This document shows positions 8,773 through 38,426 of a stretch of 41,336 nucleotides of DNA, piece after piece (the first letter of the stretch is position 1; every line of letters starts with the position of its first letter). The notes under the pieces were generated by a model. The model had not been told where the DNA came from. It did not search any database and worked only from the letters and a program-made list of their open reading frames with translations. The position numbers and the translations under genes are program-made. The DNA lies in the IMG/VR virus record IMGVR_UViG_3300048593_000256, positions 1 to 41,336 of that record. One strand, given 5' to 3'. The stretch is from a virus.

Positions 8773-8877
8773 TAGAGTCCAGGTACTCGGACGTTGCGGG
8801 GCGGCGACCCGCAGAGCCAAGCTTGACGCCATATTTGAGCCGATAGCACCTCGCCGCCATTAGGCGGCAAGCCCCAA

Positions 8878-8962
8878 CCGCCCGGGGCCGTCCGAAAGTT
8901 GTTTGGGGTGAATGCGCAGGCGATGCGCTGGGGTTCGACTCCCCGCCGTCCATCCCGGGCGG
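8878..8962 (+). repeat. Diverged copy D of the shared RNA module
   Basis: A 10-bp helix (8878-8887 with 8953-8962, one G-U) encloses AATGCGCAGGCGATGCGC (8911-8928). That differs by a single missing base from the 5' hairpin block of modules A and B. It is followed by the T-loop-like hairpin at 8930-8944. The conserved 3' block of A and B is absent. Confidence 0.5.
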
Positions 8963-9315
8963 AACGAGAAAAGGAAGATGCGGTGGTGTGAAGTCCGTCC
9001 GGTCCTTATGGGCTGGGGCCGCAATGCCGGGATCGCATCCGGCCACCCCTGCGTTTCAATGCCGGCAATCCATCAAATCCGGCGGGAGATAGCAACCGTG
9101 CTGCATAGCGGGCATGGGCTGATTGACTCCCGCCGGAGCCGGCGCCAACGTTTAGCCGGCCCTAGTGGCCGTAGAAATACCCCGGCGGCGTGGATAGACA
9201 CGCACCTAGTTCAACCTCATGACTAGGGTTTGTGGGCGTAAGCGGCATGGCATGAGGCGTGATGTAGCCGCCAGCAAGCGACAAAGCCGGTAACCAATCC
9301 GGCCCGGGGTTCCAA

Positions 9316-9465
9316 ACAATGCGGAATGCGCAGGCTGATGCGCAGCGAAAAGGGCTTAGGAGCTTGGCTGTATCAGGAGCCTTGAGGCAGTAGCCAATAC
9401 CCATTCAGATCGTCTGTAGCAGCCAAAAGCTGGAAGAAGTCGATAACAGCACCGGCCCGCATTGT
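9316..9465 (+). repeat. Copy A of the shared RNA module
   Basis: A closing helix of 9 bp (9316-9324/9457-9465) is followed directly by the hairpin block AATGCGCAGGCTGATGCGC (9325-9343). The 3' side has a 5-bp hairpin (9429-9433/9452-9456) holding the 18-nt loop AAGAAGTCGATAACAGCA. The same parts occur in the same order at 34618-34730 on the other strand. ACCCATTCA (near 9399-9407) is also shared. Copy A has about 50 more bases between the two conserved blocks. Confidence 0.8.
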
Positions 9466-9703
9466 GCAGTAAGGCGGAACAGAAATGGCCTCCGAGTCCT
9501 AGCCGAGAGGCTAGTTGAAGTCCATCGGCAAGGTGCGCCCTCCGATGGCAAGGCAGTAAGGCGTGGCCCCGGCCATACGGGGCGCTGAACCCTACGGCCT
9601 CCCGCTGGGCCGGCCTTACACCGCATCCTCCCAGTGTAAGGAGAGGCGAAAGCCGCAGCGGGAACATTCAGTTCTGCGATGGGTCGCAGATAAGGAGGAA
9701 GGC

Positions 9704-32855: not shown

Positions 32856-33503
32856 TCATGCAAGCTGTTCTAGCGGGCGCTTAAGATCGTACAGCGCGCG
32901 AAGATGTTTGAACGCCTCCCATGCCTCGGGAATGGGTTGATAGCTATGATGATGAAAATCGCCGCGCTCCTTCCCGAATCTCAGCAAATGCCACCGCTCG
33001 AAAGGTTCTCCTGTGCTCTCCAAGTCAAGATGATGATACGCGGCCAACTGGATCAGGTGCTCGGCATATGTGCCGTTCGATGTCTTGAAGTCGATCAGGA
33101 CTTTCTTTGATCCCTTGCGGCCTATGCCATCCAGCGTGCCGCCATACTTGAACTGTTCTGAAACGTACGCGGCCTCGGACTCGACGACTTCGATTCTGCT
33201 ATCTTCGCGCCATTCAAGGTAGGCGGCGAACGCGCTCCTGACCTTCTTTGCCGCCTCCTCCGGTATGTCTGGCATAACGAACTCTCGCCCCTTGATATGG
33301 CACTCTGCGGCTTCGTGGGCGATGGTCCCGATCTCTGCGGCTGCGTCACGCTCCCCGTAGAGCTCTTTCCCTTCGAGACCCATCCTGTGAGCCCACTTCA
33401 TGAGCGGGCCTTTGCTCCAGCCTAGGGAAGTTCCGAGGACCGTTGTGGTCCCCGGAATCTTCGTCCCATCGGCGAGTGTATAGCCTTGCTTATGTGTTGG
33501 CAT
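32856..33503 (-). CDS. PD-(D/E)XK exonuclease (RecB/Cas4-like phage nuclease)
   Basis: 215 residues. Restriction-type nuclease core: H63 region IGTIAHEAAE, acidic E108/E110 then KYGGTLDGIG (D125), VLIDFKTSNG (D138, K140) and HLIQLAAYHH (Q152, Y156). This is the PDDEXK_1 layout of phage recombination exonucleases. With the SSB-like gene two bases upstream it likely forms a recombination/replication pair working on single-strand ends. Confidence 0.85.
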   Translation of the reverse strand: MPTHKQGYTLADGTKIPGTTTVLGTSLGWSKGPLMKWAHRMGLEGKELYGERDAAAEIGTIAHEAAECHIKGREFVMPDIPEEAAKKVRSAFAAYLEWREDSRIEVVESEAAYVSEQFKYGGTLDGIGRKGSKKVLIDFKTSNGTYAEHLIQLAAYHHLDLESTGEPFERWHLLRFGKERGDFHHHSYQPIPEAWEAFKHLRALYDLKRPLEQLA

Positions 33504-34154: not shown

Positions 34155-34202
34155 CCGGGTTCCCGCCCGGCTCGGGCGCGCGCCTTAGCGGGCCTCGCGC
34201 GC
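34155..34202 (-). promoter_or_regulatory. Two stacked hairpins in the leader of the SSB-like gene
   Basis: 7-bp GC stem 34176-34182/34196-34202 and 5-bp stem 34155-34159/34166-34170 with loop TTCCCG (plus strand). The latter lies 35 bases before the minus-strand start at 34120. A near-identical CCGGG/CCCGG hairpin lies before the gene at 35653. Confidence 0.5.
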
Positions 34203-34208
34203 TAGACC

Positions 34209-34292
34209 CTAGAACTCGGGGTAAGTATAAGGCCCGTCCGTCTCATATGATGGGATGTCGGGTTCGTTCGGGTCGGTTACGTCGGGGAACAT
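34209..34292 (-). CDS. Possible 27-residue acidic microprotein
   Basis: ATG at 34292 follows the TGA of the upstream gene by one base, and 27 codons read MFPDVTDPNEPDIPSYETDG then PYTYPEF. Very acidic and aromatic, unlike shadow translation of GC-rich DNA. No ribosome binding site; expression would depend on re-initiation. Tentative. Confidence 0.35.
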   Translation of the reverse strand: MFPDVTDPNEPDIPSYETDGPYTYPEF

Positions 34293-34293
34293 A

Positions 34294-34587
34294 TCAGACG
34301 ACCACGCGATAATCAGTGGCCACATATTCGTAAGGCTCGACCTCGGGGCATTCCTGCTCATCCCCGTAATAACCGCAGCTCTCGGTCTCTTGGCTTTCCG
34401 TGAGCGGGCGGCGGATGTGCGTCATGTAAAGCTTTCCATCAAGCTCAAAAACGACGCGGCGCACGGATTCCCAGCGCCGGGCTTCGATGTACTTTTCTTC
34501 GATGATCTTGGCGTTTTTGAGCGAGCCGATTTCATGCTCGCCGCAACCATTGAAAAGCTCGACGAGTTCAGTTGTCTTGAATTGCAT
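34294..34587 (-). CDS. Hypothetical small protein downstream of ncRNA-2
   Basis: 97 residues from ATG 34587 with a strong site CTGGAGGAAGT. QFKTTELVELFNGCGEHEIG then KIIEEKYIEARRWESVRRVV and a C-terminus rich in Glu/Tyr. No family recognised. The structured module B ends only 31 bases before the ATG, so its translation may be influenced by that RNA. Confidence 0.7.
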   Translation of the reverse strand: MQFKTTELVELFNGCGEHEIGSLKNAKIIEEKYIEARRWESVRRVVFELDGKLYMTHIRRPLTESQETESCGYYGDEQECPEVEPYEYVATDYRVVV

Positions 34588-34617
34588 ACTTCCTCCAGTT
34601 GATTGCGGTTGAAACTC

Positions 34618-34730
34618 AGGGGATCGGACTCGGGCCGGTGCTGCTATCGACTTCTCCCGGCTTGAATGGGTCGCTGTCACCTGCCGTCAAGCGGCGCGCA
34701 TCAGCCTGCGCATTCCGAGTCCGATCCCCT
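34618..34730 (-). repeat. Copy B of the shared RNA module
   Basis: Read on the minus strand: 16-bp closing helix, then AATGCGCAGGCTGATGCGC (34714 to 34696), a 41-base middle with ACCCATTCA, and a 5-bp hairpin (34661-34657/34638-34634) with the 18-nt loop GAGAAGTCGATAGCAGCA. The 21 bases GG + AATGCGCAGGCTGATGCGC are identical to 9323-9343. The 23-base 3' block differs from 9435-9457 at one position. Confidence 0.8.
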
Positions 34731-34987
34731 CAGTTCAAGACGGGCGCCGGCTTGGGGTCCGGGCGCCCGGTGCCGCATGCTGGTCCGCGATTACGCGGAT
34801 TCGCGCGTTGCGGCCTATCGCGCGGGGCCGTTACGGTTGCTTTCGACACGTCCTCCTTGTTGACCTTCAAGTCTGCGGCCGGACCGCGACTGAACCGGTG
34901 GCATGCCTTAGGAGTGAACTCCCTATCCAGCCGCAGACTTGAAGGTGCTCGCCTAGACAGTCACGGCGGCGAGCGGCCGCCCGTTGT

Positions 34988-35060
34988 CGTGCGTATCGAC
35001 TTCGCCAGCCGTCCGGACGCGATGCCTTCCAGCCGACCGGAGCTTCGCAGGCTTGCGCCT
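34988..35060 (-). repeat. Diverged copy C of the shared RNA module
   Basis: On the minus strand a GCGCA-AGCC-TGCG hairpin (about 35058-35046) is followed 43 bases later by GAAGTCGATA (35003-34994). This is the same order and nearly the same spacing as in module B. The rest has diverged. Confidence 0.4.
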
Positions 35061-35119
35061 CCACTCCGCGGGTGCCCGCACTCACGGCGGCGGGCTGTCG
35101 TCTTGCACCTGCACGGAAT

Positions 35120-35326
35120 TTATGCGGGCTCTGCCGGAATGCCGAGAAGATCAAGGGCTTCGTAAAGCAGTTCCTGCGGCGTCGCGTCTGCGAAAAATGA
35201 GACGCTGATGGGCTCATCGCCTTCGTAGCGATATGCGCCAACGCGATCATTGTCCACGACCACCCGGATTCTTTCGCCTCGAACATTTGCGGCAACGACC
35301 TGCGCCAGTGTCATTTCTCGTTTCAT
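35120..35326 (-). CDS. Hypothetical small protein
   Basis: 68 residues; ATG preceded by CGAGGAACCC. KREMTLAQVVAANVRGERIR then VVVDNDRVGAYRYEGDEPIS and a helical end (ATPQELLYEALDLLGIPAEP). Mixed alpha/beta, no family recognised. First gene upstream of ncRNA-2 in the leftward block. Confidence 0.7.
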   Translation of the reverse strand: MKREMTLAQVVAANVRGERIRVVVDNDRVGAYRYEGDEPISVSFFADATPQELLYEALDLLGIPAEPA

Positions 35327-35368
35327 GGGTTCCTCGTTTGCCGTACACCTTGCACGGGTGGGATTCGA

Positions 35369-35653
35369 TCAGACGCGCTTCAACGCAGCGACGCGCGGCC
35401 AGTACAGGATCGGCTTGGCCTTCGGGGTTGCGCCGGGGACTTCAACGACATAGCTGACTTCGTTGCGCCGCCACCCCCCGCCCCAGCAGCTTCGGTGGGT
35501 TCTTTCTTTATCGTTCATGTAGTTGATCGCAACCCGATCACCAGCCCTGCCGGCCGGGACGACCAGCACAATCGGCCCGCGCTTCGTTTTCGTGGTGCCG
35601 GCGCTCGAACTGGTCCACTCGACCACGTCGCCGATCTTGAATTCTTCGCTCAT
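35369..35653 (-). CDS. Hypothetical small beta-rich phage protein
   Basis: 94 residues, preceded by AGAGAGGACAGC. SEEFKIGDVVEWTSSSAGTT then KRGPIVLVVPAGRAGDRV: an SH3-like 'F-x-x-G-D-x-V-x-W' start common to small phage proteins that may bind nucleic acid or protein. Basic C-terminus. A CCGGG/CCCGG hairpin lies 22 bases upstream of its start. Confidence 0.7.
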   Translation of the reverse strand: MSEEFKIGDVVEWTSSSAGTTKTKRGPIVLVVPAGRAGDRVAINYMNDKERTHRSCWGGGWRRNEVSYVVEVPGATPKAKPILYWPRVAALKRV

Positions 35654-35674
35654 GCTGTCCTCTCTGAATTGGTG

Positions 35675-35690
35675 CCGGGATTCCGCCCGG
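35675..35690 (-). promoter_or_regulatory. CCGGG/CCCGG leader hairpin before 35653
   Basis: 5-bp stem with 6-nt loop ATTCCG (plus strand) between genes 35918-35697 and 35653-35369. Almost the same as the hairpin at 34155-34170 in front of the SSB-like gene. Confidence 0.45.
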
Positions 35691-35696
35691 GAAGAA

Positions 35697-35918
35697 TCAA
35701 TTGAACCCTTGGATGAATCTTGTGACTGAATCTCTTGTCGGCCCAGTCATGAGCGTAACCAACCCAAGTTCCGCGCAGATGCCCTCGCCTGAGCTCTTTG
35801 TGTCCGGATGCTTCCCGAGGTCTGAAAGCATGGACGCGATGGCACTTGGGAAGTCGCCAGCCTCAACGTACTTCATAGCCCGGTCTTTACACCACTGCAA
35901 ATGATCTGCTCTGTTCAT
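35697..35918 (-). CDS. Conserved-type small phage protein (NRAxHLQWCKxRAxxYVxAG)
   Basis: 73 residues: MNRADHLQWCKDRAMKYVEA then GDFPSAIASMLSDLGKHPDT and a C-terminus RDSVTRFIQGFN. This is a well-spread small phage protein of unknown function, recognised by the 'HLxWCKxRA' and 'SMxSDLxKHPET' segments and the terminal F-I-x-G-F-N. Helical. Confidence 0.8.
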   Translation of the reverse strand: MNRADHLQWCKDRAMKYVEAGDFPSAIASMLSDLGKHPDTKSSGEGICAELGLVTLMTGPTRDSVTRFIQGFN

Positions 35919-38275: not shown

Positions 38276-38329
38276 TGTGCCTGCGCAATGGCGCCCGGTG
38301 TTGCAACCGGTGAAATAGACGTGCGGTTG

Positions 38330-38423
38330 TATCTCCAAAGGAAGGCGGGCTGTCGCCCTAACAAGGCCACCAGTGCCGCCGCCGTCGGGATTGCAACCGA
38401 TAGCCCGCCCCCCTTTGGAGATA
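38330..38423 (+). promoter_or_regulatory. Hairpin sequestering the ribosome binding site of the HD hydrolase gene
   Basis: A perfect 12-bp helix TATCTCCAAAGG (38330-38341) / CCTTTGGAGATA (38412-38423), continued by 8 bp (38344-38351/38402-38409). The GGAG that should serve the GTG at 38427 is inside the 3' strand and hence paired. The loop carries TTGCAACCG, as does the sequence just upstream (near 38311), and GCGGTTGTA (about 38322-38331) can pair with either. Alternative folding could expose or hide the site, as in a riboswitch or thermometer. Confidence 0.65.
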
Positions 38424-38426
38424 CCT

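Follow-up and report, generated by a model that had tools for sequence, protein, structure and literature searches.

An intergenic string of RNA modules in the leftward operon of a phage, with a possible divergent relative of STnc100

The window analysed here is the whole of a virus record, 41,336 bases long, in which the terminase, head and tail genes run rightward, and the question it raises is what fills an intergenic gap of its leftward operon, at positions 34588-35119. The operon also has small genes without an assigned function and, at 32856-33503, an exonuclease gene (phrog_298, E 5.5e-31); among viral contigs we found no usable close protein relative of the 32856-33503 reading frame. 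As the preliminary description had stated, the gap lies exactly between two small protein genes, the minus-strand ORFs 35120-35326 and 34294-34587, and it does contain a perfect 17-bp helix (34863-34879 with 34930-34946) and a perfect 16-bp helix (34618-34633 with 34715-34730). No exact inverted repeats with arms within 500 nt of each other are longer than these two anywhere in the 41-kb record, and when exact 16-mers paired within 500 nt are counted the record scores 3, against 0 in 40 of 40 dinucleotide shuffles. The minus strand of the gap folds with a z of -5.66 (none of 100 shuffles as good), and the plus strand with a z of -2.75 (3 of 100 as good). Elsewhere in the record, 38329-38424 forms a further strong hairpin, whose arms are a perfect inverted repeat of 13 bp (89% over 27 nt) separated by 42 nt.

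The motifs said to be common to the gap and an RNA at 8.8-9.7 kb are confirmed, 22 of 22 and 30 of 33 nucleotides being identical, and a structured minus-strand RNA that shares modules with this second locus is well supported. The picture of one 0.53-kb non-coding RNA as a single fixed unit is not supported. The gap consists of at least four separable modules, and since relatives carry them apart (as in the viral contig L129; loci of other records are given L numbers), reordered (as in L127) or with swapped inserts, we regard it as a string of RNA modules. As neither a promoter-like nor a terminator-like site was found around it (0 of each in 34200-35700), it is plausible that the RNA is embedded in the operon mRNA.

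The 5' part of the gap, M1 (34947-35119, minus strand), is GC-rich and folded and contains GAAGTCGATACGCACGACAACGGGC; an exact 25-mer from it was found in one viral contig only, L129, and L369 has a stretch related to it. L129 is 88% identical to the gap across 290 nt spanning M1 and module D (34863-34946, minus strand), which was delimited by the inverted-repeat search and by its relatives and consists of the perfect 17-bp outer helix, longer in the predicted fold, around a small multi-hairpin core. In the module D relatives of L127, L129, L369 and L371 the flanking arms are similar and the cores different; the arms of L129 are partly kept around a differing core, and L369 and L371 have three inner hairpins. 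Apparent protein-coding sequence separates M1 and module D from module B/C in L129, and in L127 the order is the opposite one, module B/C then module D. An element ACCGTAACGGCC-GCGCG...CGCGC at 34802-34837 (minus strand), read by eye from the sequences, is also present in L127, where the arm pair is GCATG...CATGC, by eye a compensatory change. It is a variant of a wider element, GCCGG-A..CGTAA-CCGGC, which is found on the same strand and within 2.5 kb of the motif of module B/C, here termed R1, in 26 of 33 cases, a count that leans upward because the loci were mostly fetched for that motif. A frame of 39 codons within the gap (34730-34849, minus strand), with a GTG start and GGAGG two bases before it, overlaps these elements and ends at the closing stem of module B/C, and we consider a protein-coding reading of it less likely than an RNA. 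Coding by a 188-codon antisense ORF was rejected, as the corresponding stretch of L129 is interrupted within module D by gaps of 3, 1, 2 and 5 nt and the frame is thus not kept.

Two shorter motifs, B and C, had earlier been taken for separate modules. Both are present, and they turn out to be hairpin 1 and hairpin 2 of one and the same module, which is closed by the 16-bp helix. Across the aligned loci its order is closing stem, G-AAU, hairpin 1, insert, A(A/U), hairpin 2 and the second strand of the closing stem; the sequence of the closing stem varies from phage to phage, and the general hairpins are GCGCA-GGCUGA-UGCGC and GCCGG-AGAUCAGCA-CCGGC. The copy in the gap, identified by its R1 match, extends over 34613-34735 on the minus strand, with a closing stem complementary at 20 of 21 positions (16 bp of them perfect), hairpin 1 (GCGCA-GGCUGA-UGCGC) at 34696-34711, all five pairs of which show compensatory changes in relatives, a variable insert of 34 nt at 34662-34695, replaced in L129 by a different one of 115 nt, and hairpin 2 (GCCGG-GAGAAGUCGAUAGCAGCA-CCGGC) at 34634-34661, placed by the R1 alignment, whose longer loop retains a CAGC able to pair with loop 1. 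The R1 covariance model matches 34620-34727 (minus strand) with 49.2 bits and an E value of 1.5e-12, and with its closing stem, both hairpins and complementary loops (GCUG and CAGC) 34613-34735 belongs to the R1 family. The second RNA stretch, 8777-9703 on the plus strand, has two copies of module B/C with several unassigned folded stretches in between. One of the copies, at 8898-9057 (plus strand, R1 E 5e-10), has the loops GCGA and UCGC and, at about 8930, an insert hairpin like the T-arm of a tRNA (UGGGG-UUCGACU-CCCCG), and the other is at 9312-9470 (plus strand, R1 E 5.2e-14).

The structure of this module could be examined in many relatives, as an exact scan for GAATGCGCAGGCTGATGCGC matched at least 120 viral stretches. 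A first alignment (A1) was built from exact hairpin-1 matches with a visible closing stem, 62 candidates of which 55 loci were aligned, and gave 107 cells with two-sided changes against 31 in shuffles; its stem percentages lean upward because the loci were chosen with the closing stem in view. Two tests are free of that choice. In one of them the matches were anchored on the core of hairpin 2, blind to the flanks, 15 of 121 being dropped for want of the core and 95 distinct loci remaining after repeats and cut-off flanks had been dealt with, and the closing stem is fully paired over 5 bp in 87 of these 95, the shuffled mean being 27.5 and the maximum 38 in 1000 shuffles. Loci with a stem other than GUGGU are fully paired in 47 of 50 cases, against 5.7 when shuffled. 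The other test is the R1 alignment of at least 88 loci fetched by hairpin 2, with 92 matches that give 90 distinct rows, where two-sided changes occur at 5 of 5 hairpin-1 pairs and 8 of 9 closing-stem pairs, in 265 cells against 76 in shuffles.

The two hairpins also appear to touch each other. The GCUGA of loop 1 and the UCAGC of loop 2 are complementary, and both stems are of equal length. In a compensation test we scanned for a variant hairpin 1 with the loop GGCGA, which gave 7 viral contigs and, with the record's own copy at 8898, 8 loci; where GCUGA has become GCGA, UCAGC has become UCGC in 7 of the 8 (6 by script and L351 by eye), the exception being L354, which keeps UCAGC in spite of the changed loop 1. 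Further variant loop pairs are UGGUG/CACCA (L274), GCGA/UCGC (L305) and UGAUGA/UCAUCG (L278). The complementary run averages 4.33 over 9 distinct variant pairs, against 3.43 when shuffled, and this average is above every one of 500 shuffles; two of the nine, the P1-type pair and that of L293, have a run of only 3.

The region between the hairpins is different in nearly every phage. Inserts were obtained from the modules as 216 nonredundant sequences out of 239, with a median of 72 nt, and their folds are a little more stable than those of shuffles (mean z -0.54). One and the same insert cassette (GAAAGACATTGCAG.TATTGCGG...) was seen behind different closing stems and flanks in L105, L095, L092, L084, L013, L024 and others, a distribution that looks as if cassettes are exchanged between phages. 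Strict T-arm hairpins of the tRNA type are present in 8 of the 216 inserts, with 0.02 expected from shuffles and 0 in reverse complements, a count that excludes L349-L355, which were fetched for another test. The inserts of L349, L351 and L353 have D-arm as well as T-arm sequences (by eye), and the tRNA model gives one insert of L108 a score of 34.2 bits. Of 194 modules, 15 have a tRNA gene on the same strand no more than 500 nt away, where 2.5 would be expected at random, and none has one on the opposite strand. The likeness to tRNA is real and is confined to a minority of the inserts; the 41,336-base record itself contains no tRNA according to ARAGORN.

With one enteric example of the module as query, matches were obtained in 249 of 50,697 phage records, among them P1, HK629, IME11 and Klebsiella phage T751, and in 1,120 of 5,426 complete E. 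coli genomes, many of them spanning only part of the query. Most of the matches listed carry no annotated feature, and the contigs among the matches listed are mostly from beta- and gammaproteobacteria. Phages and prophages of these two groups carry the module widely. The scan with R1 covered 100 of 119 genome contigs. At 17 annotated loci around R1 modules, the module lies outside annotated genes in 13 and overlaps small ORFs of unknown or putative function in four (P1, Fyn8, Huey and SopranoGao), and ARAGORN finds a tRNA in the fetched stretch of 7. Phage ZCEC08 has a promoter-like site, the module and then a tRNA-Ile and a terminator-like hairpin, running against the direction of the neighbouring structural genes. 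A search of open-licence papers returned no description of the module or its motif, nor of the tags described below.

A conserved stretch with a tag-like frame lies upstream of the modules in P1, T751, IME11, ZCEC08, VLCpiS13c and several prophages. With its tag frame followed by a pseudoknot, it resembles the mRNA-like part of a phage tmRNA (ssrA). It is located at L130:1599-1749 (P1), L132:2277-2425, L133:2282-2430, L358:3759-3907, L359:2269-2425 and L360:2278-2426, and it occurs in 5 of 100 chosen loci and is absent from our record. The tags read ANDDVVLMAA (IME11), ANDDLMMVAA (P1), ANDEQFLAVA, ANDNTFLAVA, ANEEMYLAVA and others, which we take to resemble the E. coli tmRNA tag, and five that were searched for are printed in no open-licence paper of the literature searched. 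Compensatory changes are seen in both stems of the pseudoknot, with 23 two-sided cells against 7.2 in shuffles, even if 124 of 500 shuffles reach the observed number of pairs with a two-sided change. The IME11 unit matches the permuted tmRNA model weakly (33.1 bits, cut-off 47), and ARAGORN made no tmRNA call in the tag-bearing loci. Phage-encoded tmRNA has been described from 402 of 18,146 phage genomes (PMC9004378). The gap differs from these in that the mRNA-like tag part is absent from the record, and tmRNA was rejected as an identity for it, the tag-module model R2 having no match in the record at E up to 5 and ARAGORN none. Module B/C is preceded in the enteric loci L132, L359, L360 and L130 by a further module, ACAACAGGTAAGAGCAUU..insert..AGUGCUCUUUCCGUUGUGG, whose last strand has two alternative partners, one upstream and the other the closing stem of module B/C, an arrangement that could serve as a switch. 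The unannotated gaps L132:1484-3568 (IME11, 2.1 kb) and L133:1407-4742 (T751, 3.3 kb) resemble rows of RNA modules, both structured and tRNA-like.

Is the module a known RNA? Rfam searches of the record at gathering and permissive thresholds gave no believable match, GOLLD and ROOL included, and the STnc100 model (RF02076) found nothing in it at E up to 10, hence nothing at the curated cut-off of 47 bits. None of 20 R1-type loci matched STnc100 at gathering. Both models fall on the same P1 module (L130:2771-2903), R1 with 37 bits (E 1e-8) and STnc100 with 33.4 bits, below its cut-off, and T751 has an R1 module plus a full STnc100 (48.8 bits). The architecture of the gap module is that of STnc100, a closing stem with AAU, a 5-bp hairpin, an insert and a 5-bp hairpin abutting the stem. 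STnc100 and PasD share with R1 a closing stem UGGUG..CACCA, the AAU, a 5-bp hairpin 1 with a 6-nt loop, a variable middle, a 5-bp hairpin 2 directly on the closing stem, and carriage by phages or prophages. The R1 module differs from them in its hairpin sequences and in a host range that includes betaproteobacteria, and the loop-loop pairing test covers the R1 family and not STnc100. An intrinsic 3' terminator of its own, of the STnc100/PasD type, was not found at the gap (0 in 34200-35700). Because STnc100 has no match in the record, and matches at E up to 0.01 in only 3 of 19 other records with R1 modules, we call the gap module STnc100-like and not a member. Copies of STnc100 are expressed in EDL933, one of them confirmed by Northern blot (PMC5331693), and STnc100 is reported in outer membrane vesicles (PMC12370729). 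PasD is described as a small RNA of prophages that is bound by Hfq and can be aligned with STnc100, with seed regions differing between members, and the Pas small RNAs as all having a terminator at the end (PMC13192938). GOLLD and ROOL are, like the gap RNA, carried by phages or prophages without an assigned function; they often lie close to tRNA islands, and they form cages (PMC12286853); R1 modules differ from both in having no sequence or model match to them and in being independent units of about 100-200 nt. The rnaC and rnaD of T4 resemble R1 modules as small, stable RNAs that a phage encodes within a cluster of tRNAs, and rnaC has a T-arm-like hairpin at its end; both were rejected as relatives as R1 does not match them at E up to 5. 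The M3 RNA of phi80 was also rejected; it is annotated in its record as an oop homologue.

The structure of the module, that is its modular build, covariation, loop-loop contact, hypervariable insert and cassette exchange, is well supported; its function we infer. The best explanation, which we hold tentatively and put somewhat below an even chance, is that the gap encodes a phage RNA scaffold within an early operon, STnc100-like but divergent, which displays an exchangeable domain to host targets. A modular RNA would be made together with the leftward early operon, and 34613-34735 would be its best-defined module and a divergent relative of STnc100 in one superfamily. The covariation shows that the closing stem and the two 5-bp hairpins with their mutually paired loops form a rigid clasp, which displays the hypervariable and exchangeable insert. 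The long closing helices may protect the module, or let it emerge from the operon mRNA as a small, stable RNA. The insert would then be the part that contacts the host target, most likely by base-pairing with host RNA, as is indicated for the STnc100 relative PasD, and in the tRNA-like inserts most likely by capture of host factors that handle tRNA. Several points speak against this scaffold: STnc100 has no match in the record and its match in P1 is below the cut-off, L354 breaks the loop compensation, no promoter or terminator was found at the gap, and the inserts, for which no target was found, are only mildly more structured than shuffles.

It is because of STnc100 and PasD that base-pairing with host RNA is ranked ahead of a tRNA decoy and of roles in cis. 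In a decoy mimicking tRNA and tmRNA, modules put together from parts of both would titrate the enzymes of host or defence that handle tRNA, and the insert would diversify in an arms race. The T-arm hairpins, one of which is in the record's other RNA, the D-arm and T-arm pairs, the L108 insert, the neighbouring same-strand tRNAs and the tag-like module upstream in some enteric phages all favour such a decoy, but 208 of the 216 inserts lack a strict T-arm, none was found in 34588-35119, and the record has neither a tRNA nor a tag module; we consider it unlikely. Equally doubtful to us is an element that acts only in cis, with no trans-acting RNA, where the long helices would make the mRNA 5' of gene 34587 more stable, or would mark a point of processing or read-through. 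About 25 nt, with a GGAGG among them, lie between the end of the closing stem and the start codon, no promoter or terminator of its own was found, and long perfect helices such as these fall in the size range of RNase III substrates. The module is, however, also found in unrelated settings and on the strand opposite to its neighbours, in L359 it stands behind a promoter-like site of its own, and the exchange of the insert as a cassette is not needed for a simple stabiliser.

The paired loops could also act between molecules and build a multimer of RNA only, as in GOLLD and ROOL, which would suit a phage-borne and partly tRNA-associated RNA with kissing loops and a variable region. We find this very improbable. 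Rfam matches the record to neither family, and a contact within the molecule is favoured because in each module the two hairpins are neighbours on one junction and their stems are equally long. For the scaffold reading, the clasp-and-cassette design predicts that the insert sets the target.

It is possible, though we would put it well short of an even chance, that all this belongs to one undescribed class, in which phages reshuffle rows of interchangeable RNA cassettes as a means of attacking or evading the RNA and translation machinery of the host. The cassettes would be clasps of kissing hairpins around hypervariable inserts, arms like those of a tRNA and, in P1 and other phages, a unit resembling tmRNA that has a degron-like tag of its own, and STnc100 would be one small branch. 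Frequent in phages and in E. coli and mostly without annotation, the module is a common phage RNA that has been overlooked, and STnc100 and PasD, expressed prophage RNAs, would gain a wider family with a tested tertiary contact.
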